From assembly GCA_903813345.2 (NCBI GenBank), contig CAIIXF020000001.1, positions 29,377,915 to 29,441,914 on the forward strand: a DNA stretch of 64,000 bases. The letters run 5' to 3'. The stretch comes from Owenia fusiformis (taxonomy: Eukaryota > Annelida > Polychaeta > Sabellida > Oweniidae). Below are positions 225 to 36,300 of this stretch, piece after piece. The notes below the pieces were generated by a model. That model searched no databases. It had not been told where the DNA came from and saw only the letters and a list, made by a program, of their open reading frames with translations. Position numbers and translations under genes: made by a program. Positions within the stretch are counted from its first letter, which is position 1; every line of letters begins with the position of its first letter.

Positions 225-335
225 AACATTCAGATTCATCAGATCCATCAATGCAGTTGGGTATACCATTGCACTTTTCTGTCCCTGGGATACATGTACC
301 ATCTCCACAACGATGCTCACTGGGATCACATGCAG
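225..335 (-). CDS. HSPG2: Exon: LDLa repeat 43, last in window
   Basis: Motifs are [20 protein letters not shown] and IDGSDESEC. Histidine replaces the usual aromatic residue, both flanking calcium aspartates are asparagine, and the tail is back to two residues. This most C-terminal repeat therefore stands apart from the long-tail block. Its gtaagt donor shows that the gene continues beyond position 1. Confidence 0.9.
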
Positions 336-3300
336 CTAGAAATGTGAGGTTTTAAACAAAAAATAAGCTTATAAGCGAAAAAAATGGAAAAAGCTAAAAT
401 CATGGGAATGAAAAACCACTTAAGTTCTTAACTTTTCTCTGAAAGAATAATTTCATTTAATTATTTTGTGAATACAAAAACTTACAACACAAAGCTTTTG
501 ATTCATCAGAACCATCTGCACAATCCCCTTCTAGGCCATCACATTTGAATGCAATATCTATACACTCACCATCATTACAACGGAACTTCTCTGGACCACA
601 TGCATCTACAGCTACAACATTCATATGTAAATAGTTTGAGAATTTTGTATCATTGTGTATGTGTGAACTGTGATATAATTTTATGTTCATGTGTTTGTGT
701 GGTGATGCTATGACGATGATGCACATTCTCCATGTTTATATACGAAGCATGATGCTATTAGATTTTATCAAAACTTACAACAAACTTCCTCTAATTCATC
801 TGAGCCATCGCTACAGTCTTCCTTTTGATTACATTTATCTTCTACATCAATGCACTCTCCACTTTCACATGTAAACTGATTTTCGGAGCATGTTACAGAA
901 GCTAAAACAGAATTGATGGAATAAAATGGAAAAGAACAAATAATATGTATCTGTGTGTAGATTAATTTTGATAGACATTCAGAGTTTTGTCTGAAATGAT
1001 TAAAAATTGAAAAAAAGTTAATCACCATTCCATATCAACAGATGGTATGAAGTAAACAACACCACTGTATTGAACATTATATTACAAAGAATTATTTAGG
1101 GTTATCAACATGGGGAACATGTTTTATTAAAGAATTTGATTTTTTCGCTTCAATTATATGTTTCATCACATTTTCCTTCTACTCTATTGTCACATGTTAA
1201 CTCATTAGTGGTACATGTAACAGCTGTGGCTGAAACATTGATGCCAAGTATTATGAGGATTTGAATTTGTATTGGTTATCGTGCCATTGAAAATATGTGT
1301 ATATGTATGTCACACAAAATCAGGGGGAAAACTGTATTATATTAACAAAACAACACTTATATTAGGAAAATCTCAAATTCAATTCCAATTTGTGTTCAAA
1401 ACTTACAACAAATATATTCAGATTCATCAGAACCATCAGAACAGTCTCCTTTCCCATCACATGATAAGCTACCATCTATACATTCACCATTAGCACATGT
1501 GAATTCACCAGCAGTACAAGTTATTGGAGCTGAAATGTGGTGATGGGACATTTTAATACAACGATCCACCAACTACATAATGATGAGGAGTGTATATCTA
1601 TTGGTACAACCATTAAAATGTTTAAATAGAGCAATTTCTAATATATCTACTCAATAAAAACCTTATCAAAGTTTTTCATATACATTGTTGATATGTGCAT
1701 TTCCTTGTCCTGCAGTATGTGTCTAAGAATATGTGTTTTGATAAGCATGCAATGGGAATTTATCTTGATATACCTGATTATCTCTAGGTAAGGAGCCATA
1801 TTTTATCCTTGTCCTCTCTTGTGAATTATTACCAACTCAATATTATACGAGTCACGTGGATATCCTAATTTAACATAAGCAGTTGTCACATAATACTTGG
1901 GTGCTAAAACATGGCAGTCAGTATGTTAGAGACATGAAATGTTACAGAAATGAGGTGCTGAATAGTATAAAGAACAAAACTACATTTGATGATATCTTGC
2001 ATATGATATTCCAATTCATTTTCACTTAATAACTCGACAATTCCACACATAAAATTAAAAAAAAAACAATAGGAATGAGATAACAATATGTGATAATAAC
2101 TTTGTTGAGGGAAAAATGAAAATACTTTGTTGCAAACTGGACCCAAAGACAAAGAACCAGATCTGCCCTATGCAAGAAAGTCATCAAATATACTTCATAT
2201 AATGATTGGTATCATCTCGAATAATATTTGATTAACAGAAAAAGAATTCAGAATTCAATGAGTATTGACTAAAAAATGAAAATATATTGACATTAATTGT
2301 TATTTAATGAAGGAGGACAATATATCCGATCGGATAGAATGAGTCTCAGTTTCCATATCCTGCAAATGCATGCTGTAGAAATACCCCATTACCAAAGGAA
2401 TTGACCATGAAAACTTACAGCATGTTGAAACAGCTTCATCAGACCCATCCATACATTCTATGGTCATATCACATTTAAACATTATGTGTATGCACTCCCC
2501 ATTGTCACAACGAAACTGTGTATCACTACATTCTATAAAATGTACAATGATCTTATCATTGCTTCATACAATGGTGATGGAACATACAGTCTAAAGTGTT
2601 TTAATATTCTCTCTTGAAATGAGTCCACATTTAAACATTATATGAATGCACTTGCCATTATCATAATGAAACTGTGTATCACTACATTCTATAATATGTA
2701 CAATGATCTGAGAGCTTCATCAATGGTAATGGAACATGGAGTTTAAAGTGTTTTAAAATTCTCTTTTGAACCGAGTCTAAGGCAAGTAAAGCTGAGGTGC
2801 TTATATAAGAGGAAACATACTGCAAGTAGTTTCCGTATCTTCATCTGATCCATCTACACAGTCCTTTAACAGGTCACATTTAAAGTATATATTAATGCAC
2901 TCCCCACTCCCACACTGGAACTCATTCTCTGTACACTCTCTCTTAGCTAGAATGGATCAATTCAAAAGACAATCATCCCATTGTTTTCTATCTGTTATGA
3001 GATTAAGCCATCTTTATAGCTCACAGTTACTATATTTCTGCATGTACAGGGTGATCAAGAAGAAATGAGAAGTGCTGTCATCAATGGAAAAGTAATACAA
3101 TATTTACTAAATATTTACATACATCATATAAACATCAACTCGATCAAGATGTTTCAAAAAAGAATTTTCTGAGTGGTACACTTAAACATTCTCGAGACAA
3201 GCTTAGTATAGGTGTTTCAAACTATAATTACAATATGAAACACTAATAATGCCAAGATACTCGCGTATATCACACATGCATTCCCCGAAGTATTAGATTG

Positions 3301-6300
3301 TTCGAAAAGAGAAAAGAGCACTTTTGCATTTACTTATCTCTCACCCTATACATATACTATTCTGTATCATATTTCCATCTGATTAAGAAGGAGAAAAAGA
3401 ACAGTGGGTGAAGGTCATTATTAACATTGGGGACAGAACTATATTATACCACTATATTATTCCACATGTTAACAACATACGATTTGATTAAGGCGACTAT
3501 TACTATCTAGTATTATAGTTCTTAACACAAACCAAACTTACGACATATTGTATTTGCTTCATCTGAGCCATCCATACAGTTTTCCTCACCATTACATTTA
3601 AACTGTAAATCTATACATTCACCATCATCACAGTGAAACATATCAGCACTACAGCCAGAGGACACTAAACAAAATGATGTGAAATATGAAATACATATTT
3701 TGAATGGGTCAACAGATTATGTCTTTAAGACAATGTATTTTGCAGTGATGTAATGAAATTTTCAAAGGAGAACATGATGAGGGTTTACAGAAAAAACTTA
3801 CTACAATAGGTTTCTAGTTCATCTGAACCATCGCTGCAGTCTTTTCGACCATCACATTTCTTGTTGAGACCAACACACTGACCATTATCACATTCAAACT
3901 GAACAGCAGTGCATTTTTCCAAAGTACTCGCTAAAATTATTGTTGAGAATAACCAATAAAAGCAAAAAGAAATGGAATTGATATTGGTTCTGAATATGTA
4001 AATATTACAATAGACTTCAAAACATGGCGATTTTTATCTCCAGATGTTCAAATTGTTGAAAACTTACGACAAGTTATTTCGGACTCATCTGAGCCATCAC
4101 TACAGTCATCATTACTATCACATTTCTTAATACCATCAATACACTCTCCATTGCTACATGTAAACTGATCAGCAGAGCATTCTACAGTTTTTGGGGCTGA
4201 AATATCCATGTGAAAAAATAAAAAACAATATTTATTTTTCAAATAATACGATATTCTCAACATTATCACTTTTGCTTCTTGTTTTCCATGTTTTGTGAAT
4301 AATCCAGTTTCTGATTTTTATTAGACTACCAAGTTCTTCAAATTTTCCCTAGTTATGCTATATGTTAGTTTTCTCTGGCTTTCTCTGGCCTGCTCAGTAT
4401 ATATGATTAAAGCTTACAACATGTAGATGGAGATTCATCTGAACCATCTGTGCAATCCTTATACTTGTCACATTTCCTTCTATTGTCTATACAATTTCCA
4501 TTGTCACATCGAAACTCATACCAACTGCAGTTGCGGGCAGTTTCTATAATATAATGGTTGAGGTATGCAGTAAAACACAGAACATTTTGATTAGTTTAAC
4601 AATACGACTGCTTGTACCTTTTAGAATGAAGCAGTTTTACTGAATGCACTATTCAATGTTATTGTGATATTATTATAATGCCAGTTTTGTAATATATGTA
4701 ATTGTCTGGAGCTTAAGAGACTTACGACAGTTGGCTTGTAGTTCATCTGAACCATCTTGACAATCTACATAACGATCACATTTCCTTCTCTTGTCTATAC
4801 ATTTGCCATCATCGCAGCGAAACTCAAAGAAAGTACAATTACGAGGAGCTACAATGTTCAATGTTCCAATCATTACGTTAACAGCAAACAGACCGAAACT
4901 AAGGTATCAATCCAATTCAATTCATTTTATAGAATTAGGAATTTCATGAAAATCAATACACATTTGTTCACGCTTCACATGTATTTCAAAATATGTTTGA
5001 TTGTGAGAAATCATTCTCTCATAAAAAGAACTTACGGCAGGTAATAACTGATTCATCTGATCCATCATAACAATCAGAATAAAGATCACACTTAAATCTA
5101 CTGTCAATGCAAAGTGAACCATCATCACATTGGAACTCAGTGGGGCCACACATAGATGTCACTGCTACAATATAACACCAGTTGAATATTAGGTACAAAG
5201 GTCCATTCATATCCAATCTAGTGCCTCTCTATTTATACTCTTTATATTGGATATAGTCGGATAAATCAAACCAGATGTATCATGTCCAGTCTCTGGAACA
5301 CTGGTGCCTGAGATTTTAGTAATGACAATCATAGTTACATTAAACATTAGGGCATACATTGTACAGTACAGATGCACCTGTCCAATGCAGCAGCTATTTG
5401 GCACACATGAGTAGAGTGAATATCTTATCTGGCTTTGATCATCTTATGACTTAGGCTTTAAATAGATCAAGATTATGCAAAGACTTACGACATATAGTTT
5501 CTAATTCATCCGACCCATCACTACAGTCTTTTACATCATCACACTTCTTTTTATTATCAATACAGTCACCATTATCACATGTGAACTCTGTAGAGCTACA
5601 ACTTGACACTAAAATATCAAATTGTACCATGTTTAAGCATGTGACACAACATCAAGCATGTTTCAAAGCTTTTAACAGGATTTCATTTTGTTGAGACAAA
5701 TGAAACTCCAAATGACATAATGACATGAAATACTCCATTACGTTTGTTCATCTCTGAATTGGGTGTTCAATGGAACTTCTTATTAAAAAAAGTTTGTAAA
5801 GAAACATGTAGTATGGACACTTGATTGAGCTCATGAATGAAGGAATATGGTTTGATAGAACTGAATGACTTACGACATGTCATTTCAGATTCATCTGAGC
5901 CATCACTACAATCTTTGGAATTATCACAGGTTAATGCAAGTTTTATGCATTCACCATTAGCACATCTGAATTCACTCACATCGCATGTTACAGGAGCTGC
6001 AATATCAAATAGATGCAGCAAAATCAGAGAGAAAATAGAGAATAAATTCCTACTCCACGGGAATCATATTCATCCCATATCCATGATTGACAATGCCACA
6101 ATATCTCATTATGAAAGACAATTGTGGATAATTTTTAAAATTGAGTAAATCTTTTTTTAAACATAATATCAGACATCTTCTGACAGTTTTGGATCTATAG
6201 CATAACTGAACTTACTACATTCTTCAGATTCATCTGATCCATCAGTACAATCATTCGTACCATCACATTTCTTCTCGATATCTATGCAGTCACCGTTAGA

Positions 6301-9300
6301 ACAAGTAAATGTGTTGCTTCCACAAACTTTCGGCGCTAAAATGTGGGAGCACCATAAATCACAATGATAAGTAATGATGATAAGTGATTGATGGGACCAA
6401 AGGTTTTGAATGAATCAAAACTAAAAGAACTGTCAATTTTATCATTTAAAGATTTAAATCCTTAATCCAAAACCAGATGATAACTTACAGCATGTTGCCT
6501 TTGCTTCATCTGATCCATCTTTACAATCACTCCAACCATCACATTTACGTTCAATACTAATACACTTTCCAGTGCCACAGCGAAACTCTTTCTCAGTGCA
6601 TTCCAATAAAGCTAGAATATGAAGCCAAATAGATTGCACAAGAATGCTCAAAATGTGTATCAGGGATTGATAAAAAAAGGTCTAAGGGTTTATTATGAAC
6701 AAATAGAAACAATACCATGGAGTAATAATGTATACAGGGTTATCTAAATTCATTGTCGGATTGGAATCCTATACTTTAATACAGGTCATATATAAACATG
6801 TAGAGGGCTGGTATTTATGTTAATTTTTAATTCAGATGTTTAAATTGGTTATTGGAATAATAAGGGGACTCACGACAAGTTTTTTCAGATTCATCTGAAC
6901 CATCAGTACAATCCTTTCCTCCATCACATTTCAATGCAATGTTAATGCACTCCCCTGTCTCACATCTAAACTGTTTATCTGTGCAAGTCCCTCTCACTAA
7001 AACACGTGGCATGTAGTTGTATACATATTTTGGGGGATTTTTGGATTTTGGAATGACGATATGTTTTGTCATATAGTTGTGATTTTTGCATTGGTTATCA
7101 TGTAATAATGTTGAGAGCAGGCCTTATGGCTTGATTTCATTGTGTAATCTTTTCATACAATGATGCCCTATATGGTTTCACATTTAGATAGGCCAGCAAC
7201 CTATGGTAACTATATGACTATATTATATATTCAATTCAAATATGCCAAATATATTTATTTATTATGCAACTCACAACAAGAAGTCAGAGATTCATCTGAG
7301 CCATCTGGACAATCTACAGCTTGATCACATTTCCAACTTATGTCTATACAGCTACCATCTCCACACTCGAACTGTTTACTTGTGCAATTTTGAAGGGCTA
7401 GGGAAATTACAAAGGTTTTAAAATAACAACATGACATTGTTTCTTTGATGTTTTCTAATGTCTGTGTTATAAAAAGTTTTATCTGTTACCTAATTCATCA
7501 TTCAATTTTTTGAATCGCCTAGATTATACTTCACTGAATTAATGGTTTCAATGAGATTTCCTTCAATGGGATATGAGTTTCTGATTCGGCTATGACTTAT
7601 CAATTTGATGAGTTGTGTCAATGTTATTCTAATATGCTCTAAACTTACGACAATTTGCCTCAGATTCATCAGAGCCATCAAAACATTCCTTAACCCCATC
7701 ACACAACCATTCAATATTAATACAATCCCCATCATCACACCTGAACTGCTTGTCAGTACATTCAACGGGAGCTATAATGTGGATTAAAGTTCATTAATCA
7801 ACTTCTGCTCCACGCATCCTGATGTAGGGATTCTACATGTAATTCTTCTTAAAAACCGTTTGACAATGTGTAAAATTAAAGCTTTAAATTGTGAAGTTCT
7901 TGAATAAAGCGGAGAATGTGTATGTTAATTACTTACGACAAGTTACATCAGATTCATCTGAAGCATCTTTACAATCGGGAGAACCATCACATTTCCATGC
8001 TAACTCAATACATCCACCATCATCACATGTAAACATTTCATTGCCACATTTGTTTGTTGCTACAGTAGGAAGTATTTAACAAATTAAATGAATATCTTCT
8101 TTAGAATAACTTTAGTTGCGCCATTCTCACGTTACCCATCATAGTTTGAACAATATATGTATGTTCTATATTGCAGATTGATATTAAGATTTGTGTACCA
8201 TATGGATCTGGTTTTTACCTTAGTCTTTATGGATTAAAACTGTTTTGATGTTAATGTTCTTCAATTCATGTTTGTACTTGTATTTTTGAGTACTGTTTAT
8301 ATGGTAAACTTACGACAGATAATATCATATTCATCTGAGCCATCTTTGCAATCTTCTGTTCCATCACATTTCTTAGTCAAATCAACACAATTCCCATCAA
8401 AACATCGGAAATCATTATCAGTACATTCAACTGGGGCTAGAAAGTGAAAATCCAAATTGATATCCCTTTATGATTATAATAATTATTTGTTCAATTTAAC
8501 ATAAAGAATAATGTTTAATACTAACAGATTGTGGTCAACAAACTTACGACATGTTGTTTCAGATTCATCTGAACCATCAGAGCAATCATCATTACCATCA
8601 CATTTCACTTTAGCATCAATACACTTGCCATTGTCACATGTAAAGGTATTAACAGGACACGTAATTGGGGCTAAAAGATTGAAATAAATGAGTATTTTAA
8701 GGGTGTTTTGTCAACCCTTCACAAACGTTTTATACTAGCCCTAATGTTACATAAATCAACCTCAAATTGTATACCAAAGGATTGCAATCTAGTTCATTTA
8801 AAAATGGATGATTCAGTGAATGAAATGCATGGCGACAAGATAGCAAGAATTGCACTACAGGGGACTTACGACACAAATCTTTTGCTTCATCAGACCCATC
8901 CCCACAATCATCATTGCCGTCACACTTTCTGAGAACATCAACACAAGCCCCATTGCCACAAGTGAACTCAATATCAGTACAATCAGTGGTGGGTGCTACA
9001 ATATCATTCCAATTCATTATAGCACATTCAGGAGGGGTTTCAGCTGGTAAATGGAGACGAGACACCACTCAATAAGTGTCATGTTATTATAATAACAGAA
9101 GTGACTAATACAAAAACAACAGGATCAAGTTGGCCGAATGGCTGTTGAATCCAAATGAGTTAAGAGATGAATCAGTGTAAATATTAGAGTTAACAACTTA
9201 CGTTGTTCACAAATTTCTGGTGCTTCATCTGATCCATCTTGACAATCCTTTGCCTTATCACATCTCCAACTAAGTTCAATGCACTCCCCATTTTCACATT

Positions 9301-12300
9301 GAAACTGAGTCTCAGTGCACACTAAATGTGATATCAAGAAAGAAAATAATGAGGGTATATCCTTGACTAATTTGTCAAGTCTGGACTAGTATTAAAAATG
9401 TAATGTTGTAAGCTGCATGTCTGTGTTTCTAAAGCTCTGGTTTATGAAGAACTCTTTCTAAAGTTGAGGTTTACGATTTTTCATAGGTGCGATGAAACTT
9501 TTAAAAACCTGACTAACATAATTATAAGCACATTCAAACAATAGATCTGTCTTCTACCACTGATGCTAAAATAACTCTAACTTACTACAATTTGACTCCC
9601 ATTCATCAGAACCATCTCTGCAGTCCTCTAGACGGTCACATTTATAATCAACATTAATACATTCCCCATTATTGCAACGAAACTCATCTTCTACACACGC
9701 AGCTATGTCTAAAATGTTCATGTTTCTGACTTAGATATTGAATATTTAACCTTAATGAATCCTTACGCTCTAAATCTAAAACAGGTGAATTAAAATCCAA
9801 CCTACTTATAAAGGAATTTTAAAATATATAAGGAATATGTACTTCTTTGGATGTGCATTTTCTTAATTCTAAATCACTCAATGTAATGTATGTATTTCAT
9901 TTTGTAATTCCTGACTTACTACAAGTTTCGGCTGATTCATCAGAACCATCGCTACAATCCACATTATCATTGCACTTCTTAGCGATGTTTATACATTCTC
10001 CATTATCACAACGGAAATCAGAATCACCAGTACAAGCTTTAAAACCGAATGATATGTTCTTCAGAATGTGAGTATAAATATCAATAAAACAAATCGATGT
10101 TCACTTCCATGGTTTTTCTTAATAATCAATTGGGTAATATGTTATATTTGTAACAACCAATCAGTATTAAGAGTCGAATAAAACTTACGACAATTTTCTT
10201 CCAATTCATCTGAGCCATCGAGACAGTATTCTATACCATCACATTTATAACTACCATCTATACACTCCCCATCATTACAGCGGAATTCACCAACAGCACA
10301 AACAATAGGTGCTAAAATATTATATCTCAAATATTGTAAAAACAACCAAAACCACACATTATATTGGTGTACGTGTCAAATATTCCACGAAGTTCTTCTT
10401 GTATTATGTAATGTTATAATGAAATTTAAAATGGTTAAACTTGTTTTTGAAATATCTTCTTGAGGAGTTGTTGACAGATAACTTAGTTTAAATGAGGTGT
10501 AGTATTGTGTTGGAGAAAATTCTGAATTAGACCTAAACTGACCTTCAATTGTTTGCGGTTGTATGTATGCATGTGGTATGTATGTATGTATGTGTATTGG
10601 ATGTATCAGTCTAGTATCAATAAAGCATTGCTTATTAGGTTGTGGTCCATCTTGGAACATATCCCGTGACGAATTGCACTTCACTGTTGTGACAGTTGTG
10701 CAATTTTTATTGAACAATTGTTCAATAAAATACCTAAATATAAAGTATAAATGAAAAGTATACTTACGACAGTCTGCTCCAGTTTCGTCTGAACCGTCAC
10801 TACAGTCAACAAAACGATCACATTTCTTAGCTATATCGACACACTGTTTGTTTTCACATTGAAACTCACTAGAACTACACTCTGACTCTACCGGTGTTGC
10901 TAAAATATCATGCAGCATAAAATATTGATTCCAGATCAATGACTATGTGATCAAAATACTAAAGTCAACATATAATTTTTTTGTCATTGATGTGACATCA
11001 GTGTTTGCAAAAAGAAAGCATAAAGGAAAAGCTTATGAATCTGACAAAGAGATTTAAACAATATATGTTTTGACAAAAAACAGGGTCAAAAGATAAAAAA
11101 TAAAATAATAGAAGATGATTGTGTAATATATTTTTCTCTTTGTCAAATTAGCAGGTACGGACAATACTTTACAAACATAGAAACTTATACTACGGAATAT
11201 GTTGGTGTCAATACTGAATGGACAAAATCCGATGGTGACCACATTTTCATTTAAAGTTTGTATCAGTTCTAGTAAGCAATCCTGACAAAATCTTTTATTG
11301 AACATTTTTGATAAAATCTAAGATAATTCAGATCCTATTTGATGCTGTCACATCATTTGAAGTTTTGCTGGCTGATTTGGAAATATTAAATAACTAAATG
11401 GGCAACAGTCACCATCAGATAAAAGGGAAATAAACTATTGCTAAGCATTGGTTTATACTATACTAAACTTAAACTAAATAAAGCGATCTATACTACATGT
11501 GATTGACTACAACTATGCCAAAAGAGCATGCATCCATAACAAAAATTAAAAATTTTAAAAATTCTTGGAAAAACTTACGACAAGTAGCTTCAAATTCATC
11601 TGAACCATCAGAACAGTCCTCACGGCCATCACACTTTCTCCTTACATCAATGCAGTCACCATTACCACATTTGAACTCATTATCAGTGCATGCAACTGTA
11701 ACTACAATAAGGGGAGCACAGGTCTTAGAGCATGCCACCTGAGACTACTTACAGTAAATACCAAATCAAAAAATGGATGAAATGAAAGCTTCAAAACTGG
11801 CAACTGAATACAAGATTCATTTGAACATGCAGGCACTGAGATTTTCAATAACAGCTTTCCCTGAAATGCCCTTTATATAAAGACAGATAAGGTATATCAT
11901 ATCATGGTTAAATGTTATAACTCATACTTGTCAAAAATTACATTAAGAAGATAGTTTATTCAAGGATTTAATAATTGTCTTGAACAGTCAATGCCCATCA
12001 CTGCTCCAAGCAAATAACTATATGTGCTAAGTCTGATAACTTTGATCACTAAAACTAAGTCACTCTTTGACAAGTACAAGTGAAACCTATTCTACTTATC
12101 ATTCACCTATGTTCTTATTTAGTGTAGACAACAAATAATAACCATCACAAGCAATGAAAGGAAACATGCATGAAGAATTCAAAGTGTACTCACGACAAGT
12201 AGCTTCAGATTCATCTGAACCATCGGAACAGTCCTCGCGGCTATCGCACTTTCTCCTTGCATCAATGCAGTCGCCATTGGCACATGTGAACTCAAAAGCA

Positions 12301-15300
12301 GTGCACTCTACTGCAGCTAAAATGTGGGAAACATTGTAAGCGCACATGCAGGGAGCTGATGAAGTGATATTCTATTGTTCCAAATATTTGTATTGCTAAT
12401 ATTCACATTGTTTGTTAAAAACATGCAATATGTCAACTGCTCAAACATTTTAATATTGAATTTTTCAAAACCTCTCAGCCATTTTGCCCAAATGATAAAT
12501 GCAATATTTAATGTTCATCCCATTTATGTCGAACCAGATACAATGCTGAATAATATTAGCAATATAAATATATGTATTGTTCATGTACTTTAAGTTCTTT
12601 TTTGGAGTACAATGAAGAATGATTCTATTTTGAACTACTAATAAAGCACTGTGATAAAGACAATATTGGAAATCCAGGAAATATGTTCCAAAACAAAAAT
12701 GACTAAATACAGTATCAGTATATAAGGGTTGTTTAGCATTTTAAATATACAGGGTTCATACATGGGAAATATCTGTATCTCCCTATGGGCCACAGGGACT
12801 GAGAAAGATACACATATTTCCCAAGGGATAAACCCTGCATCCAAATCCAAGCATACATAATAAACATATCCTATACCTCCATTCTACCTATTATAAGGTT
12901 TTTTAAAAAATGTTAAAAAGCTTAATTCTAGTTTTTGAAAATGGAATATTTCAGATAACACTTTTGAGTAAAAATGAAAAAATTCATGTTCAGTTTTAAA
13001 ACTGAGATAAAAATCTATTTTTAAAACTGTTATGAAGTGGGACAGGATTGACAAATGAAAAATGCCTCTGCTGTAGCAGGATATATAAATTCCACTCCCT
13101 AGATACATCATATATTCCCATGTGTTATCTACATGGGATACACATGTTCATCCAATGGTCATTTCTGTATAGTAGTCATTAAAGCCATTGTATGTGGCTT
13201 TACCAGTGATCAGAGAAAACTGAGTCATATTGACCACATATACACTTACAACATGCACTTGCTGACTCATCTGATCCATCTCTACAGTCCTCATACTGGT
13301 CACATTTCCTTCTGTTATCTATACAATCACCATCTGAGCAGCGGAATTCATAAGCAGTGCATTCACGAGGGGCTACAATATGGGAAGTTAACAGGGTATT
13401 CATAAGCGCAAACGCAAGGAGCATGAATCTATTTTGTCATATGATTCCTCGTTTTGATACTGAACAAAACCTGAATCATTAAACATCATAGATTTCAATG
13501 TTAATCAAAATTATTCACTCCTTCCCAACCAAGTATCTTATTCATAGACAAGCAGTCTTTAAATACAGGCACAACTCATTTTGGGATTTTGGGAGGAGAC
13601 CTTTGGATTGCATAGTGTGACACTGCATTTGAAGAATTGAAGATAACTGGTTGGGACCGAGTGAACAATCGCGCAATGCATGGCCCTGGCATCAAAGTCA
13701 CCCCCAAAACAGGTACTGACACAATCATAAAAAAAATTGTATAAGAATTTCAAGTCAGGTCAATTATAGTGTCATAGGTGATTGCTGTTAACCATCATTA
13801 ATCTTGAGCTACCTTCATTATTTCAATTTCAGAAAACAATAATTTTGTAAATATCATCTCTAACAGCGTTTGGACCAATGGTCAAACACATGTGTATTAA
13901 ATAAAACACTGAGACGTGATGTCAAAAGTATCTAAAGATTAATATCCTGGAAGGTTTTTAACTGTGAAATGCTTTAAATAGAAAACAATCAAGTTCTCAA
14001 GTCCACCAATGCAACTAGATAGCATGTACCCATGCATTCTTGAGTGCTCCAGCCCCTAACCACTTTGCATTTAAAAACAAAAATCAGGTTTATTAAAAAA
14101 TAGGGTTTTTCAAAAAGCAGAAAACAACAATTATTATTATCATCTCACTGTCATAGTTCTCATTCTGTGATTTGTTGAACAGGGATCATATGATACAAAA
14201 GATATCTTGCGATATTTCCCTGTAATCCTTGCTGTTCATTGGCAGAAAAGTGAGCCTCGTTTTAAAGAGCAAATATTCCATTCAACCTGTTTTTAATATT
14301 CCTTCTCTATAATGAATCCCTCCCTTTTCCATGGTTACAGAATAAGAAACACAACAGTGAATAATAAAACAAATATTTCATTCTATTGTCAAAAGAACAA
14401 AATATTTGAATAGTATGTTTTGGAAATAAGCAGCAACAAATACAATACTGAGGAAATTAATACTTGTTAATAGGTTGCAGAGATTCAAGATTGACTTACG
14501 ACATGTGGCGTCATTTTCATCTGAGCCATCACGGCAATCATCTCGTCTATCGCACTTCCTCCTGCCATCAATACACTGGCCATTGTCGCAGCGGAATTGG
14601 TCTGGGGTACAATCCCCTGATGCTGAAGCCAAAGAAAATGTTATGTTACTATTAATTTGAAATTGTAAATAAAACATAAATTATCCACATTTTTGTTTGA
14701 AGAAGTTCTTTTATTGTATGCATCATGTAGTGTTCGTTTTTTATTTCAAGTTTTTTGTCAGGGAGTAATGTTAAAGCCGATCAACTGGGGCTCAGAAAAA
14801 TTTGGTTGTGTGACAACTAGCAAAGGAATTCCTCTGTCATATTCATCTACACTATAGCATAGACTTGAAACAAATCAAATCTCTTATTTCAACACATTCC
14901 ATATGTATTGCTGAACACAATAAGTACCAGTAATAAAAATCTACATATGATAGTAAAACTAAAATGACTTACGGCAATCCTTTTCATCAGATTTGTCTTT
15001 GCAATCAGGTCGTCCATCACACTGCAGTCCGGCATCGACACACTGACCTCCAGTCTCACATCTAAACTGACCGCTTACACAGCGTGCTATTTATGGAAAT
15101 AACCAAGGAAAGCGTGAATGGCAAATCAATGTATAATATTATTCGAATGATGCACAGTGAGAAAGTGATCCTAAATTAAGTGCAGAGTAGGTGACCTTCA
15201 AATCTGTGTCACTGTAAAAAATCAGATTCCCGAAAACATTTTTTTCTGTACCAAATTCAGAAATCTGATAATTTTATACAGGGCACATATCGAAGAGGCA

Positions 15301-21300: not shown

Positions 21301-24300
21301 TCACAGCGACGTCGTTTATCGATACAGTCACCACTGGCACATTGGAACTCACTATCCCGACAACCCACAGCAGCTAGAAAAATATCATAATTTTATTTTT
21401 ATGATTCAAGCATTTTAGATCAATCGTATTTTATTCAAGCAATGGGTATTCCACTCAAACTGCTAAGCTCAACCCTTCATTACATCCACCTGAATTCTTC
21501 ATCAGAGATCTACTTTCAATCTTGATCTTACATCATGAAAACAGTTCCATAAGATTAATAACATTCAGGATTTTCAACTTGAAAGAAAACAAGTCTTTGG
21601 AACCATATTAACATAAAAATATCAAAATCTATCAAGACATTTCAAGTATTCAATAATGTAATTTTTCCAATAAGGTTAGCCTATAATGCCATTGGTGCTA
21701 GGCAGCAGTACCATACTTGTATATTTTTCAATAATGTCATAAATAAATGAATAAATAAATATGAAAAAAAACATAAATATTCATGAAATGTCATATGACA
21801 GTATTACACCCATTCAAATTAATGATCTAACGCATCATATCCTTTATCCCAAATCAAAGTATAACTTACGACAGCCAAATTCATCTGAGCCATCTCTACA
21901 GTCAACCCTACTGTCACATTTCCTATTTTCATCAATGCACTCCCCAGTGATACATTGGAACTGTCCCCGTCCACATGGCTTGGAGGCTGGAAAAAATAAG
22001 ATAAAATCATACATACATGAATATATAAACTACTGTATAAATAAGATGAGAGATTATTTAGAGGAAATAGATATTTATTAGAATAATACTTTTTGTGATA
22101 AGAAAGTGACTTTCTTACACTATTTCAAAGTGTGTACTATTTATTGAAACATAAAATATATTCAACTCAGATGAACACTGCACATATGGCATGTATAAAT
22201 TAATTAAACAACTATAATATTTATTAATGTATTATGAAAACTATGATGAATGTGGTATGAAAAATCCTGAAAGATAATGTATATTGGTGATTAATAAAAA
22301 GCATTGCGCAGTATTAGAAAATCGACAAAGTGTACATGGTGAAAATGATGTGTTGCTGGTGAATATGAATTGTGAGGAGATCATGGTGTGCCTGAAATAA
22401 ATAGAACTATATCAGATGTCAATATTATTCAATCCCTATAATATGATATCTGCTGGTTAATCAAAGCTGCCTCCAGAGAATCTACTTCAGTTATTTACAT
22501 GAAAGATTAATTAATACAGGGTGCCCAGTAAGTAATGATGCAAATGCCCTTAACATCATGGACACCTTGTATAAGGATGCTCTTGCTTGTTAACTGGGAT
22601 AAAGCTAATACATATACAGATCATAGCTGCGAATAATCTTTGATTTTCAGTTTCCTTCATGAATTCTTCAGGAATACGAAAATCAGAAATTATGCAGCCC
22701 TTCATAAAGTTGGACTGTCTTAAAAGCCTTGGACACTGAGATAAGTAAAGCAATGTTATTTTATTACAGAACAGGAGAAAACTTATAAATACATAAGGGA
22801 TTGAATAATGATCACATCTTCAGAAATGGAAATCAAATTTCTCATAATATGCAACACACATCAATAAATGAGAATTTAACAGCGCAAAATAGAACAGATA
22901 AAGCATAGCAGCGTGCAACATTTACGAATCAAACAGAACAATATACCATTAACATTGAATAACATGGACAGAAACTGGAAACAATAGATTAATATAACAA
23001 ATTATTTTGAGTCTAACCTTAAGCGTAGCTCCTGTAAAATATACACTTAAATCTTGAAATCAAAGAAGTTAATGTCAGCATGTCAAAAAATAGCTTTCTG
23101 AATTTGAATAAGCATCAAGTGTGTTTCATCCGCTTGATGAAAAGACACGTCAACAACCCAATTAAAATATTTCTTTGGACTGGGAAATAAACCATGATAG
23201 TTGATTTAGAACTTATGTGCATTTAAGAACTCAGGGACTTCTTTATTTGCTTTGTTTCTTATATAATGAGATCCAAAGCATGCAAAGTTGTCTATTAATT
23301 AAAGATATATACCAAGGAGCGAAATATGACAAGGAGCGGGTTTTCTAATCATTATTCAGTGTGTCAGTGTGTGAGTACAGTAGTAATCTGCAAGGCAAAG
23401 TGCTGTTAGAAAACTGCTTTGGCGTCAGCCCCATCCCAAATTCACACACATAATTCATTCACTGGTCCAAAAATTAGACCAGAGCAATTCAAATATAGAA
23501 AGGCACTATTAAAACTGAATAAAATCACCCCGAAGTCATTCTGTGACATTCAATTTTATAAATTTAGTTGTGCAATGTATATGCCTATCAATGTGTGGAC
23601 AACCCTAGCAGTGTTGTAACACGAGTTTAAACAGATAATAGGGAGGTATAGCTTGCATTTAATCAAAATGAAAACGAGTAATGTATTGAGTGTGCATGTA
23701 ATTGCATACAGTTGTATTGCTATTCAGCTTCAGTGCTCTGCTTAGAACGGGAGTATGTACAGAAATGATTTTCTTAGTGTTTCCTGAATATGCACAGTTA
23801 TGTGAGTTTCTTTGAGTACATTGAAATCATAAAAGTCAAAAATACATACATTCTGCATGTACAAGATTTGTTCAAAGAAATGTATATGGACTTAATAAAT
23901 CTATATACATTATACTGTATCTAATTTTCAAGCTTGTTTAAGATATTTGGAGATAAAACATGCATGTCTACTGTGCACCAAAACCAAAATGCCTGCATAG
24001 TATTCAATAAATATGCGTATAATCATTCCTGTAGACTTCAATGTGTAATTTCAAATTTCCTGTTCAAAACATAAAACTCTGAAGCTGAGCGGGTATTGGA
24101 ATGGTACAACAGTATGCACGCGCAACACATTCCTAAACAGACTCATGTACATGCTTAAATTTTTCTGTACACGTTTACATTGTGAAAGATAGCGCAAGCT
24201 TAACCTCTCTAATAAATAAACACATTGTCTAATCCCTCATTGGTAAGTCTAAAACACAGTGACACCCCTTTACCATAATATGAACATGTCCATTTAAGCA

Positions 24301-27300
24301 AAATGGACAAGTCCATGCATGTAGCAAGAGGTGTCTGAGGGGTGCCAGGACATGACACGGCACTTACGACAATCTAACTCATCAGTGTTATCGGGACAAT
24401 CAGATTTGCCATCACAACGATCCTCCAATGGGATACACAGGCCACCTTCACATCGATACTGATTTTCTGCACACGGAACTGAAACTACAACCCAACTAAT
24501 CAGCATCGAGCTTCCATCAGAGCATGGTAAAAACAAAAGATCAAAAGTATCTTAATAAAGAAATTGAAATTGATTTGTGTGCTCTTATATCACTTTTAAA
24601 AAACAATACATGCATCTAGAAGATGCTATTTCCCTAAAAGTGATCCAGAAATATATTTTTGAAGAAATGGATGGGAAAACTGGTCTCTGATGAATGCAGT
24701 TCTGTTAAAATCAATAAATTGTGTCCTCAAATGTTCCTTTCCATATCTTAGTTGTCTTTTTCATCTGAAAAACTCATGAATTATAACATTTCTCTATAAC
24801 ATCAAATATTAATTTGTTCTTGAACATCACAAAAAGAACAACTGCAATTTTCACTTTCAAAATTCAATTTTGAATTAAATATAACACATCATTATAGTAT
24901 CAATGCATGTAATACACCATGCAGTTTTGCATCTGGACCATTTTTAAGCTACCCAGAAAACATGCATACAGCTTTCCTCGGGTAAGTAGAGCTTAGGTCC
25001 CAATAGGCATTTTCACTCATATGCCATGTGGAATATTCCCCCAAATGACCAGCAAGTTATCTGTTCACCAATTCAACAGTATTTTATATTTTTCAAGTAA
25101 TTCTGAAAATGCAAAACTTGATGAATGCATATCATGAATGGGCCTACAGAAATATATATTTGTCAAATAATCTCAAAATACTTAAATTCTTGGTATTTAT
25201 ACAGATGCTATACATTATATGATTCAACATCTTAAATTATTCAAAACAAATATTTTGGGATATTCATGGTGGTGCTGCCACTTGAAAAATGCAAATGGGT
25301 GAACAGATAAATGTGAAAGAAAACACAATGTATGTAAGTGTAATAAAGCCATTCATTACTTAGTGGTTATTTCCCAACCTTGTTTCTTAATATTAGTTGC
25401 TGAAAAATCTGAATATTGCTATGACATGGATTAGTGTTCATTTATAATGACATTTCACGAGGAATTGTTAATATTTGTATTGCCAATCGACTGCCAAATC
25501 AACCATGAGCGAGACCTTTAAGTATTAATATTGTATTACTTCAATGATTTACACCAGCTTGCAATTACAGAATTTGATTGTGCAATTTCACATAAGAGAC
25601 TGGCCAGTGGACTTGGTAAACAAACCTATTCCTGGCCTGGATATAGAAGAATATTAAAGTTTGGGCTTATAGCGGGTAAGAAATAAAATCTTGAGTCTAA
25701 CAGCTCTTTGGTGATTTCTACAACTGATTTATGGAACTATAAAATGAGAGATAGTGAATAAGATTTCTTAAGATTCTCTGTGAGACTTTGCCGATGGTTT
25801 TGGCCAAGAATTTATTTCCCTCGAAATGTCATTATTGATGTACTATAATTGCAGTTGTATCTTATTCAATCTTATATGGGGTAAGCAATTTCCAGAATTT
25901 ATGTTAAATAATAAATAAACTAAGCTTATGAACTTTTGTTTTTCTTTATATAATGAAGCATTTAGGAATTTCAGATTCTATTTCACTTTAGTTAGTACCA
26001 ATGAGATTGAATCCTATACATAATGTTATACATTATATATACAACCACTGGATGATAGTATAAAACAAAAAACGATTTTATTAATAAGAAAAAATACATT
26101 CATAATTATACAGCATTATGTTCAGTATTGCGACCTAAAAGACCAAATGCATGCCAAGTCAGGAAAGTTTAATCTGGTCATCTTCAAGTTACTACAGCCA
26201 ACCGCAGCAAGTTTGGATTTACCTAGCATTATATAGCTTAGACCCAGATGATAAATATTCAATGCATTTCTCGTGCAGTTAAACCTCCATAACATAACTG
26301 TTCTTCTCATAAAAACCACGACTGTTGGATTTTGCAGGTTTAACTGTGGAAAGAATTGCAAAAAAATATACGAGTTCTATTTTGTCTTATCACATGAATT
26401 AAATAGTTGGAATGAAGTTATTTGAATTCTTATTTCATACATTATAAATTACATGCACTCTAATCTTCAAAGAAGGTGCAGATCTAACATTTGAAAGCAC
26501 AAGTGGAAACAACAAAGATGCTACAATACTCTGTCCTTTATAACGTCTGATACAATCAAGGATCAGAGCCTTTTACAAAATTCAACTTCATTCTAAATTA
26601 CTTAATCCACTCTACTCTAACAGACCCCTTGTTAACACAGGAGGTTAAGTGACTGTTTTCTCAAATGTCAATAGTAAGAATAACATTTTTTGAACAAATA
26701 CAAAAATAAGTAAATAAAAAAATCTCTTGATATTTTTGGTGCTCAGACATCGATCAATCTTATTCCGATTAATGGGGACAAAAAGAGAAAGACAGTTAAG
26801 CTGACCTATTGCAAATGCTTATCAAAAGATAAATCAGAAAGTGAGAATAAAAGACAATAATATTTTCACAAAGGAACATAATAAGTTTGTTTTTCTAAGG
26901 GGTCTGCAACATCTGGGCCTAAAGCAGTGGAGCACAGACTTACGACACTGAAGTTCGTCTGTTTTATCTGGACAATCTTGGCGACCATCGCAGCGCCTTG
27001 CTTCGGGAATGCACTCCCCACTTACGCAGCGGAATTCGCCATATTGGCAAACTTCATAAGAACAAATAAACAATAACAGTTATCCTTTGGGCTGAAGCCA
27101 CACAGTAGAATCACCACACACGCTAAAATCAATAGAAATCTAACTGGGGGTGGTTTCATTCATGATCTGAACTAATCGAGGAAGATAATAGAAACATACA
27201 TAATAGTCACAAAATGAAAGATATAATAAGATGAACTAAACAATAATAAGATGAGGTATAAAAGATACATACACTAATCAAACATTGCAAAGCCTTTAAC

Positions 27301-30300
27301 AACAAATTTTCCAAAGAATAGAATAGATATGTATGAACTTAAATATGAAAGCTCTCCAATACAAACTTGTAGGTAGCAGAGTTAGATATTCTTACTACTA
27401 AAGTGCTATATCGGCACACTTGGCTTGGCAAGAAAATGCATGTCAAGGGACTGACACCAAAAATTTGTACGATCCTCATGTCTGGAGTCATTTCAAAGAT
27501 CAATAAAATGGAATTGAAATATTATATTAGGATTAAAGTATGTCGATTTATATACCTGAGACCATAAATTGAGTTTCATTTTCCATTCTGTCTAAATTGC
27601 TTATTAACAAAAAATTATATCATCCAAATGTAAGGATCCTACAAGTTGATTGGTTCCTGGGTAAGCTTATAGGTGACACTAGAAAAGGTGACTTACGACA
27701 TCCAAGTTCATCAGTGTTATCAGGGCAGTCAGCTCTGGAGTCGCAACGTTGTCTTTCATCAATGCATGTACCATCAGTGCATCTAAATTGGCCACTTCGG
27801 CATTCTTCAACTGAAACATACATTTCAGGTATCATACTATTGCAAATAACAGGGCAAACAAATAAATGACCTGACAAATGAACAAATATAATAAATGACC
27901 AATCAAATGACTAAACAGAAGGCATGTTGTCACACTTACCACATCTTCGTTCATCAGATCCATCAACACAATCAAAAGCCCTGTTGCACCTGAGTCTAGC
28001 ATCAATACAGCTACCATCATCACAGCGGAATTCTTCAGCCCTACAGCTTGTCACTGAAATAGGATAATAAAAAGATGTATTAAAATAGTCCACTGTGTAA
28101 ATTCATTTAAATTCATACCAATTATAGTACAGAGCAGGTCTCATAAAGTGTTCTCAGCCCTTTCACAAGTGTAACACAAAGGTGGTGAAAACCCCATCAT
28201 TACAGGCAGAATACATGTAATTTACCATGAAAACATGAATGAAATCTGTGCATTTGTGAAAATATGTGCAAATTTGCATCACAGGTGGTTTTTGCCATTC
28301 ACCACCTTCAAACGGGTTGGATCTACATGGGGAAGATGCCACAGGAAGAGACTTCTTTCAGAAGATAAGAGACAAAAGCATATGGTTTCCCAATCACCTT
28401 CACCAGATAAAGGGAAGACTCATAAAGGGAAGACCTCTCTAAAGAGATAATCTCACATTAATTATAATTTCTATATAGCATTCACTCTCTTCAACAAAAT
28501 GACATATGGATATATATTATTCAAGCATTGTACACTGGGCCCAAATGGTTAATCTCAAATTGGTTTAAGAATCAGTGCAGAACAGATTGTCAGAGGAGTT
28601 GCTTGGTGATCTCTCTGACAATCCTCAAGGCTTTAAGTCTCTGTTTTATAACAATGAAACCAGTAAATATGTAAGCCAGGAACAGTAGTAATGACTTTAT
28701 TTGTGCCAATAATAAGCAATCAACAGGACGTTTTTGAAAGAAGGAACATGTACATGTATACGATAGCATCTTTGTGTAAATCAAACATCAGATTTTATAG
28801 ATATTCCACATTGAACATGCGAGAGTTTATTTCAAGATGTAAATGAAATCATTTAATAGTCAACCCACCCACCCAAAGGTTTCCAAATAAATCGAAACAG
28901 AAAGAACTTTCATTCTGACCATGGAACTTCAATCAATTCTGTTCAATGTCCAGACTTAATGGTACAGCAAATGACTGGATGTCTAAATACTTCTACAGAT
29001 ACTACTTGGTGCTATCAGAAAAACTCACAGTAGAACCCCCCCCCCCCTTTTCAACATTAGGGCACCCCAGTCAACAATCACTATGATGCAGCATCATGGA
29101 CAACTCTCCTATTATTAGATCTTTACATGGCTTCCTTAAACCTGAATAGCATTACTGTATACTACTGAACAAGTGTACCAGTTCTGATAAGTTTACCAAT
29201 TTGTTCAATTTGCAGTACCACTCATTCACCTTACTGACCTAAACAGTGTAAAGGACTCAAAGAATCTCTTTGAACATAAATTACCAAATTCTCTCCCACA
29301 CATTTATTATAATTACACAGAATGGTTCACTGAAATTATGTTATGAGGTTGTTTTAAACCTTTAAAGCTATTAGTGTTGCCAAAATGCTCAGTAATTGTA
29401 ATAAACTAAACCTGGATCACCCTTTCCTTCCAATGCTTAGTGTACTTAATAAAATTCTTCACAAATATTATCGTACCCTTGAGCTTAAAATTAGAAGTTG
29501 TCATTTTCAAGAATTTGGAAAAACTGAGTTGAGGTAAAACAGACAGAATTGGTTATTCAAACATGGTTGAGGTGAATGGGAGCATAGCACAGGGCTAATT
29601 TCTGCCTTTTGAAAATATCTGGAAGAAGAGTAAAACAGTCCGCAATAAAAGACTGACTAATATATATTTGCCGGCTGGTAGCCGTGTATCCCGGAGGGAT
29701 GATACAATGAGTGGGGATGCTGAAGTGTTTATCACCTAGCAACATGTAAACATTGTGCTCATCAACACCTTTCTCAGTCTGGGTTGCACTGACATGCAGA
29801 TAGTCTAACCCCGGGACAATACTGACAGACCCTGGCAGGATATTCTCATTGAAGTTAATTACTATTTTAAGGAAATGCCAGAATTGTCTGTGTTTAATAT
29901 CACAAAGGGTACTGAAGTATGTGCATATTCAGATAAAATTCAAGGAAACCATATGGACCAATAAAAAAGAACCGAGTCAAGGTGAACCTACTCAGGAAGA
30001 CAATATGTATTTAACTTCATGATTGTTATTATTTCATGTAACCAGATCTCAATTTCATGTAGTTTCTTGCAGGGGACGCCAGACTGGCATGTAATGTTCA
30101 GTTATACAAGGAATATCTCTTGCTGAGCTTTTATTGACTCATAATTCGCTCATAGAATGCTTAATAAAAGTATTTCTGATCTTTTCTCCAATGTTGATAA
30201 TGAACATAAGCAGATGAAGCTTATTTGAATTTTTTAATTTAAAATCAGGTTTAAATTATTATAACACTATTTATAATTATAAATAATTATTCCACAATTC

Positions 30301-33300: not shown

Positions 33301-36300
33301 ATTTCATTATGAAATAATTGAGGATTCAAGTGAAGCGCCAACAAGCAGTCAAATGAATCTATCTGATCCCTTTAATCTCTATAATCCCCATTAAGGAGAT
33401 ATTACAAAACATTTTTGTTCAATTCATTTGTGCATTAGAGTTTTTATATGTTGCTATCAGTGGCGAGCATAATCTTGTATAAGATGATGAAAATGGTGAT
33501 ATTATTGCAGAATAATACATTCAAAAATCTGAATCTTATCATGATGGTTAAGAAAATATATACTCTTATAATCAATTGTTAATACAACCTATGAATAAAG
33601 AGAGGAGTGATAGGAATATTTGAACTTCATCTGGTTCATTAAGCATGCAACTCATGAGATGGAAAGAGAGTCATATTTTTTGGAAAGCTACCCTGAGCAA
33701 TAAATTGAGGAGGAACCACATTTCCTAGCAATTGTATTGTTCTTTTAATAATAATAAATTCATTGGTCTTTTCTTATTAACTAAATAATTATAAAGTATT
33801 CGAACATGACTGTATTCACGCCTTCTATAAACTGTAAACAAAGTCAACATTTCCCCCGGGTATATTCGCGAAGAGTACCCCTGGTAATACATGTAATGTG
33901 TGACATCATAACGGCGGGTTGTAGTTATGGTGGACCAAAATGAATATTCAAAACATTTTGGTGAGTTTTCATGTTCGAATTGTAATATAGACCCCAGAGC
34001 AGGGGTAATATTGTCGAATATGCCCCTTAGGGCAGGGCTAGGCACAAAAGCCTTCGAACCCCTCTCGCCCTTCGGTCATTCTGGTTACAGAAGACGTTTG
34101 TGCCTAGCCCTGCGGGTGTATTCGACAATATTACTTCTGCTCTTCAGTCTGTATTTCTTAATTATAAAGGTTTCAGTGAAGAACTTTGTGCAGATGCAGA
34201 TTTTTTGCAGAATGTCACACAACACATTGTATTTTATTCATGCTCTTTTGGGAACATTTTACTGACCAAAAACCCTACCTAAATACTCCTCATACTTCTG
34301 AATGAATTTCAATATTACCATATAGGGTCCAATGGGCAGCTTTTGAATGCGGACAAACTACCAATGATTAATAAAGAGTCTAACTCACTGAATATTTGTC
34401 AATACATTTTTGAAAAGTTAAGAAAAAATTAACATAATAAATCAATGTTGATACTTAATAGTAAAAATTAATGCATCATAAGTAAATTCATAATCATGAC
34501 AGTGAATGGTAATTTCTACTTTAAATGACATAAGAACATTTACTTACCAGGACACGTTAGTACAGTTTCATCAGAGCCATCAGAGCAGTCATTCCTGCCA
34601 TTACAGAGTAGTCTCCTATCAATACACTGTCCATTGTTACATCGGAACTGGATTGGACTACACGTCAGGGGTGTGGATTGGGTTGTCACTGGAGGTGCTG
34701 TGAACCAAACATCAAATAATGTTAACAAACATATCCAAATTTCAGATTTCATCTTTGCATTATCTATTTCAATTATAATTTCTGAATTGTTAGAGTCAAT
34801 CCATTAATCCTTTCTTTGTGTAAGCCTGGTAGGCCTGTAAACTTAGCCTGTGATTGGGCCTGGTACATTCAACATATGGTAAATTGTCATCCCTTGAACC
34901 TAGCTGACTTTACCCTTTCTTCCCTGTAGCATTTACTGGTTCCGCCTTGTTAACAAACCTTACCAGGCAATTTTTCGGAATATGCACATTTCGTTATCTT
35001 TTATTGCCACTGCCAAAAATTTTATTGCCAAAATCCAATTTTCCTTCTAATTTGTGATGATACAACAAAGACCCTCAGCTAAGTTGATTTTATTTATAGA
35101 TTTATTACAAAATTATGAGAATTTGTGGTTTCATCAGAGGGTTTCATAGATCTCTCCTAAATGTCTGGTTGTTTCCAACTGCTCATTAGAGGCCTTATTC
35201 TCAAGTAGGAATTCCTCCAATTTATGTAGACATAAAGTCCATATGTGATATATTCCCATAATGATGTCAAGTCATATAAAACCTCAATGAAGTTGACATT
35301 TTATAAATAAAACAAGAACAGTTTTTCACTGCATGATGTAATTACTTTTCATGGAAGTAGAAAGAAGTAATAACAGATGTGTCTTTTGAAATGACTTATT
35401 TTGTATGAATTGAGTCAATCAACAGAATTTGATTGATTGTAAATATAATGAAATATTAGTGACAGAGATTAAATTCTAGAGGGTGAGACACAACAAATAA
35501 GTAAACTCAGTCTGAAAAATATGTTCACCAACAATTTACTCAACTGAGTAGCCACTCAAAAAGGCAGCGGCTGTATATTCACTATTGATATTTCATCGGC
35601 TGTATATTCACTATTGATTATATCAAGTTTGTACATATTCTTTAGACTGATTTACAACAGTAAGAGGTACAAATATACAACATATATGTCAGTATAGGAC
35701 AAATACATAAAGTTTAACATGCAGTAGAAATAGGGAGTTATTGTCACAATATTGTTTTCACTTGATGACCATTGCAAAACAATCAAGTCTTGAAACATTT
35801 TGGAGATAAAGCTGTAATTTCTCAAGAGCTGTTTGTTTGTTTGGTTGGTAAGGCAGTCAGTAATGCCATTAAGAATGTTTTGCATTGGTTACAAAGTGTA
35901 ACACTTATTACTATAATATTACTAATTAGGTATGTGCAAAACATAAACTAAGTAAACTATAAAACATGTAAAACAATTCAGAGAGCAAATTCCCATAACC
36001 CTTAACAAATAAATGCATACAGCAGACATTTACTATGTATGAATAATGTGAGGATTTTATTTTTATAACTGGAAAATCATGAGAACATGTTCCAATTTCA
36101 GGATGGATGGGCTGCAGTGATGACTTTAATAGGGGGAATGATTGGCAACAGGGACTGGTTTAAAACATTTACTAACACATTTATAAATCTAAAACGGGTC
36201 TGTTTTTTGTCAATTCCAACTATTATACAGACATTGGACATTTTTGGTGAACTGATTACAGTAAGGTCACATAATGGGTCCTTGAAAACATAAAATAAAA

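Follow-up and report, generated by a model that had tools for sequence, protein, structure and literature searches.

The 64,000-nt stretch of the Owenia fusiformis genome analyzed here (contig CAIIXF020000001.1, or C1, positions 29377915-29441914; henceforth the window) carries on its minus strand part of a perlecan gene whose domain II, as judged from the genomic sequence, has probably been expanded to 79 intact LDLa modules by tandem exon duplication, with most of the modules spliced in together to give a long, acidic spacer string. The assembly comprises 498 Mb in 525 contigs, and the window was extended with a 70-kb downstream flank and a 10-kb upstream one, for a total of 144 kb. Positions (w) are expressed as the C1 position minus 29377914, sites outside the window being negative or above 64000. 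LDLa modules were searched for with a profile made from 28 window modules and a threshold of 15 bits. In the window this search returned 44 matches, all on the minus strand and corresponding to 43 intact exons and one broken copy, and over the full 144 kb it returned 81 minus-strand matches. Of the 79 that are intact, the window accounts for 43 and the remainder of the main array for 33, while three follow an Ig domain. The array crosses the window start and continues through 34 further modules (33 of them intact), followed by the Ig domain and then by the last three LDLa modules. The initial annotation had described at least 43 LDLa repeats between w 225 and 34697; the 43 intact exons were recovered there, and both outer splice positions agree (module 1 has its acceptor at 34697, and the module 44 exon ends at 225), although that count covers only about half of the array. 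No match of 15 bits or more was obtained on the plus strand, in the reversed sequence or in five 2-base-block shuffles of the 144 kb, the best score among these controls being 11.5 bits, which rules out chance matches as the source of the array. The modules are distributed as follows.

34548..34697 (-), LDLa exon 1 with short Thr/Pro linker; Pfam PF00057 54.3 bits and exon model
27940..28053 (-), LDLa exon 2; exon model
27697..27810 (-), LDLa exon 3; exon model, unfiltered best acceptor elsewhere
26944..27051 (-), LDLa exon 4; exon model, unfiltered best acceptor elsewhere
24368..24484 (-), LDLa exon 5; exon model, unfiltered best acceptor elsewhere
21870..21986 (-), LDLa exon 6; exon model
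21257..21373 (-), LDLa exon 7; exon model
20018..20134 (-), LDLa exon 8; exon model
19073..19189 (-), LDLa exon 9; exon model
16322..16444 (-), LDLa exon 10; exon model
14973..15086 (-), LDLa exon 11; exon model
14500..14622 (-), LDLa exon 12; exon model
13250..13372 (-), LDLa exon 13; exon model
12194..12316 (-), LDLa exon 14; exon model
11579..11701 (-), LDLa exon 15; exon model
10768..10899 (-), LDLa exon 16; exon model
10189..10311 (-), LDLa exon 17; exon model
9920..10036 (-), LDLa exon 18; exon model
9586..9708 (-), LDLa exon 19; exon model, alternative acceptor 9729
9202..9321 (-), LDLa exon 20; exon model
8870..8995 (-), LDLa exon 21; exon model, alternative acceptor 9067
8548..8670 (-), LDLa exon 22; exon model
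8314..8436 (-), LDLa exon 23; exon model
7937..8059 (-), LDLa exon 24; exon model
7649..7771 (-), LDLa exon 25; exon model
7275..7397 (-), LDLa exon 26; exon model
6874..6996 (-), LDLa exon 27; exon model
6489..6611 (-), LDLa exon 28; exon model
6216..6335 (-), LDLa exon 29; exon model
5874..5996 (-), LDLa exon 30; exon model
5489..5608 (-), LDLa exon 31; exon model
5036..5164 (-), LDLa exon 32; exon model
4726..4848 (-), LDLa exon 33; exon model
4418..4543 (-), LDLa exon 34; exon model
4068..4181 (-), LDLa exon 35; exon model, alternative acceptor 4196
3802..3930 (-), LDLa exon 36; exon model
3542..3664 (-), LDLa exon 37; exon model
2821..2946 (-), LDLa exon 38; exon model
2627..2686 (-), broken LDLa copy, module 39; profile match, 20 residues
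2419..2532 (-), LDLa exon 40; exon model
1407..1529 (-), LDLa exon 41; exon model, unfiltered best acceptor elsewhere
779..901 (-), LDLa exon 42; exon model
486..611 (-), LDLa exon 43; exon model
225..335 (-), LDLa exon 44; exon model, array goes on outside the window
C1:29362516-29377856 (-), LDLa modules 45-78, outside the window; profile search
C1:29360165-29360774 (-), LDLa modules 79-81, outside the window; profile search

The 79 intact modules occupy 78 exons, modeled at 10,350 nt and 3450 aa in total, of which the window holds 43 exons and 1744 aa. The earlier proposal that each module is exactly one exon holds for the 43 intact window modules and for the others in the array, and fails for modules 79 and 80, which share one exon outside the window. 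With the first choice of acceptors, the exons of modules 3, 5, 19, 21, 35, 63, 64 and 70 came out longer, and the final models use nearer phase-1 acceptors. All modeled LDLa exon lengths are divisible by three, but the models were picked with a phase filter and this divisibility follows from the choice of phase. Since both acceptor choices were frame-filtered, phase was tested separately without any filter, each module being paired with the nearest donor-like site that follows it and with the top-scoring of the acceptors that precede it. Donors fell in phase 1 in 78 of 78 exons and best acceptors in 70 of 78; the eight misses (modules 3, 4, 5, 41, 47, 49, 58 and 61, four of them in the window) each also have a phase-1 acceptor. 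By comparison, 3000 random positions, 2839 of which had a scorable site, gave counts of 994, 956 and 889, about a third per phase. The symmetric phase-1 exons with lengths divisible by three that had been reported for the window are therefore borne out in all 43 models and, without the filter, by every window donor and by 39 of 43 window acceptors. In a genome-wide LDLa search, in which 150 of 450 candidates were scored and counts are lower bounds, at least 55 of the 150 matches fall in the perlecan gene. A second LDLa-rich locus (C7:21.39-21.45 Mb) has at least five matches inside one 390-aa open frame, so that one-module exons are not a general rule across the genome.

Two of the 81 copies are broken: the match to module 39 stops after 20 residues, lacks a donor and has Tyr in place of the second cysteine, and module 62 (w -8643 to -8533) lacks the fifth cysteine and a donor. 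A weak LDLa match at w 1165-1215 (minus strand, 7.3 bits) lies under the cut-off, was not counted, and is followed in translation by an in-frame stop; it is perhaps a decayed copy.

Self-comparison of the array revealed duplicated blocks that include introns: modules 47-52 versus 49-54 (2548 bp, 86.5%), 67-69 versus 69-71 (1004 bp, 93.8%) and 64-66 versus 72-74 (805 bp, 90.3%). Tandem duplication in which introns were copied along with exons accounts for the growth of the array; the blocks seem too divergent to be alleles that an assembly error turned into copies. In modules 47-54 the repeat unit is an exon pair, one member of which bears a Thr/Pro-rich linker before its LDLa module. These mucin-like linkers, in exons 47, 49, 51 and 53 (w -749 to -3668), measure 32, 52, 77 and 72 residues, their unequal lengths suggesting repeat-length change inside exons. 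The ratio of nonsynonymous to synonymous substitution rates (dN/dS) was pooled for seven groups of recent copies, which partly overlap and whose pairs are non-independent and carry few substitutions: 0.16 for modules 47, 49, 51 and 53, 0.07 for 48, 50, 52 and 54, 0.12 for 56-58, 0.11 for 59-61, 0.09 for 63-66 with 72-74, 0.24 for 67-71 and 0.22 for 63-74. Exon identity exceeds that of the adjoining 80 nt of intron in all seven groups, clearly so in six. For 28 older modules that are equal in length, the proportions of nonsynonymous and synonymous differences are 0.295 and 0.697, and differences at the three codon positions amount to 0.315, 0.297 and 0.493. These values are read as signs of purifying selection on most LDLa copies.

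Each of the 79 intact modules has six cysteines and a DE calcium motif, and the net charge summed over the 81 matches is -471, or about -6 per module. In LDL-receptor modules the residue two before the fourth cysteine is an aromatic that lies beside the acidic calcium cage and contacts the ligand by lysine docking. At this position the intact modules present R in 38 cases, L in nine, K in eight, F in six, W in five, Q and Y in four each, D in two, and V, E and G in one each. Unlike the DE motif, the docking aromatic is not a general feature of the array, being found in 15 of 79 modules and replaced by other residues in 64. Its distribution is uneven: R occupies the position in 25 of 27 of modules 47-74 (broken module 62 omitted), an aromatic does so in 11 of 30 of modules 16-46 (39 omitted), and modules 79-81 have Y, Y and W. 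The initial annotation had spoken of lipoprotein/ligand-binding modules, a description that is weakened, since with the docking residue missing lipoprotein binding becomes doubtful for most modules. Most modules thus look calcium-stabilised, strongly acidic and not made for classical docking, with the last three retaining an aromatic at the docking position.

The gene was assigned to perlecan because its domain order, strand and phase fit. Along the minus strand lie a candidate signal-peptide exon, an acidic Ser-Gly exon, the LDLa array, an Ig domain, three LDLa modules, a further Ig, laminin B/EGF, an Ig series and LamG/EGF exons closed by a stop codon at w -57958. The Ig after module 78 (PF13927, 33.9 bits against a cut-off of 30) spans two exons at w -16290 to -16966 and sets the last three LDLa modules apart from the expanded array. 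Of the ten downstream exons scanned with Pfam, eight matched at E 0.01 or better, the two without a match being laminin B parts by eye. For domain III, one candidate laminin B exon matched PF00052 (45.7 bits) and a laminin EGF matched PF00053 (34.8 bits); for domain IV, one Ig exon was recognized (PF13927, 61.4 bits), the rest being seen by eye in translations and left uncounted; for domain V, LamG was above cut-off in two of three exons and EGF in one, the other EGFs and the terminal stop coming from translation. With the Ig series, the LamG/EGF exons and the stop codon in place, the perlecan assignment of the initial annotation stands, and a gene without a perlecan C-terminus is ruled out.

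Upstream of the array, two further exons were delineated.

61976..62171 (-), N-terminal Ser-Gly acidic exon, candidate heparan-sulfate attachment; acceptor phase 0, donor phase 1, from the printed sequence
36612..37124 (-), candidate 513-nt exon, phase 1-1, unnamed domain; putative perlecan membership from strand, position and phase

The acidic Ser-Gly motifs may carry glycosaminoglycan (heparan sulfate). The donor of this exon at w 61976 is apparently of GC type (AG|GCAAGT) rather than GT. Its open reading frame (ORF) had no Pfam match, and specifically none to a SEA domain (domain I), the 25-kb intron not having been searched exhaustively. In the stretch from the Ser-Gly exon up to w 74000, three hydrophobic start candidates were found. 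That at w 73437 (MAGTAVLSPLRTLWLVAFSLLLVQTLADSAS), picked by eye, has a phase 0 donor compatible with the phase 0 acceptor of the next exon, the Ser-Gly exon, but another candidate (w 71633) shares this phase and the gene start is therefore provisional. Coding sequence would extend over C1:29319956-29451351, some 131 kb. The domain of the 513-nt exon has no Pfam or PDB match and recurs in 30 further genome matches, 12 of them at C2:26.40-26.47 Mb and eight at C6:25.96-26.10 Mb; the exon may belong to a nested gene or may add a domain to perlecan. A 51-bp tandem repeat at w 32204-32328 (2.5 copies, 93% matches) lies in the 6.5-kb intron that separates the first two LDLa exons. Nothing in the window reached an Rfam gathering score. 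Elsewhere in the assembly, the annelid erythrocruorin linker family PF16915 had three matches above its cut-off, each spanning about half of the model and one containing an in-frame stop, which makes an annelid source likely. An arthropod source, at first supposed because of fly perlecan, was set aside: neither the insect odorant receptor family 7tm_6 nor the arthropod cuticle family Chitin_bind_4 was matched, and an exact run of six TTAGG was not present, although the two family searches gave no match in any control genome either and do not prove absence. A COX1 search of the assembly returned nothing.

Several points weigh against a single, selectively maintained perlecan array. We infer from order, strand and phase that the LDLa array and the Ig/LamG exons lie on one message; two of the three candidate laminin B exons had no Laminin_B match in Pfam, and the third LamG exon, at 18.8 against 24 bits, lies below its curated cut-off. 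In the group of modules 47, 49, 51 and 53, exon identity (0.938) is close to intron identity (0.925), so that there is little sign of selection in that group; gene conversion could give the dN/dS values a false look of constraint; and, with modules 39 and 62 broken, not every copy is needed. The first of these points leaves room for an array split over two or more genes or transcripts, such as an LDLa protein of its own ahead of perlecan, with its parts joined by inference and with other starts accommodated in the 25-kb gap between w 61976 and 37124 or in the 6.5-kb intron after module 1. Such a split is nonetheless highly improbable given the single strand, the single phase and the unbroken spacing into the perlecan Ig and the last three LDLa modules, and none of the eight further window ORFs scanned gave a Pfam match at E 0.1. 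The near-identity of the tandem blocks, taken with the two broken copies and the scant exon-intron difference in the 47/49/51/53 group, would agree with a young block that is partly drifting, its copies gained and lost by unequal crossing-over and its module number without consequence; we regard this as rather unlikely, as 79 of 81 copies are intact and dN/dS stays between 0.07 and 0.24 among the groups of recent copies.

A different possibility, held here only tentatively, is that the LDLa exons are cassette exons, as the initial annotation had suggested, with a module number that would differ by tissue or stage and set the reach and valency of perlecan. All 78 exons have a phase-1 donor and a phase-1 acceptor and lengths divisible by three, so that any subset of them keeps the frame. 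Symmetric phase-1 exons are, however, usual for extracellular modules in general, and such symmetry permits skipping without indicating it. The LDLa donors are moreover uniform, GTAAGT in most cases; no group of exons stands out as weak, and none of the sequence features examined points to cassette splicing. Precedent comes from the fly gene trol, for which the available portions of the sources describe 23 predicted isoforms from three promoters (PMC8405445), 25 splice variants of 2853-4489 aa (PMC10328508) and skipping of a 468-nt exon (PMC13423992). Combinatorial splicing of all 76 intact main-array exons, with the Thr/Pro-rich linkers as further optional segments, seems very unlikely; if true, it would allow the length and valency of a basement-membrane proteoglycan to be adjusted over a wide range.

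The explanation we favor remains the enlargement of perlecan domain II to 79 intact modules, which would have come about through successive tandem duplications of LDLa exons in phase 1. Spliced in together for the most part, the included modules would form a long, calcium-stabilised and very acidic string linking an N-terminus that carries heparan sulfate to an Ig/LamG C-terminus that binds the basement membrane, making it a candidate length-setting, multivalent spacer. Unequal crossing-over would be the main cause of shifts in module number, and splicing possibly a second one. Since the array grew by exon duplication while most copies appear constrained, it may offer a natural test of whether basement-membrane linker length is selected, and, with the usual ligand-docking residue missing from most copies, a natural test of LDLa function in perlecan.

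Human HSPG2 shares with this gene the order LDLa, Ig, laminin B/EGF, Ig series and LamG/EGF, and acidic Ser-Gly sites are found at the N-terminus of human perlecan as they are here. It differs in that no SEA domain was recognized in the Owenia gene, an Ig domain precedes the last three LDLa modules, and an additional, unnamed exon may lie ahead of the array. Megalin (LRP2), an endocytic membrane receptor and not a matrix proteoglycan, also has many LDLa modules, with 36 stretches per LRP2 chain in PDB, less than half of the number here. No perlecan with tens of LDLa modules was named among the titles and abstract openings listed, most subscription papers lying beyond the reach of the search. 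The initial annotation gave four LDLa modules for vertebrate perlecan, in agreement with the available text of PMC6266596 on human domain II, against the 79 intact modules found here; the available text of PMC4398486 instead equates the three LDLa modules of Trichoplax perlecan with the human number. As described in the latter, the Trichoplax protein resembles the present gene in having LDLa followed by one Ig in domain II and domains III to V in order, and differs in its three LDLa modules and in an expansion that affects Ig modules instead (roughly 36 in domain IV). Fly and worm perlecan are without domain I in the available text of PMC6266596. Like the present gene, Drosophila trol has domains II to V, and it is without domain I; many isoforms are predicted for it in the portions available of PMC8405445 and PMC10328508; its longest variant in the latter is 4489 aa, against about 3450 aa from the LDLa exons alone here. 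Domain II, small in human perlecan, is in Owenia encoded to the extent of those roughly 3450 residues by LDLa exons alone.

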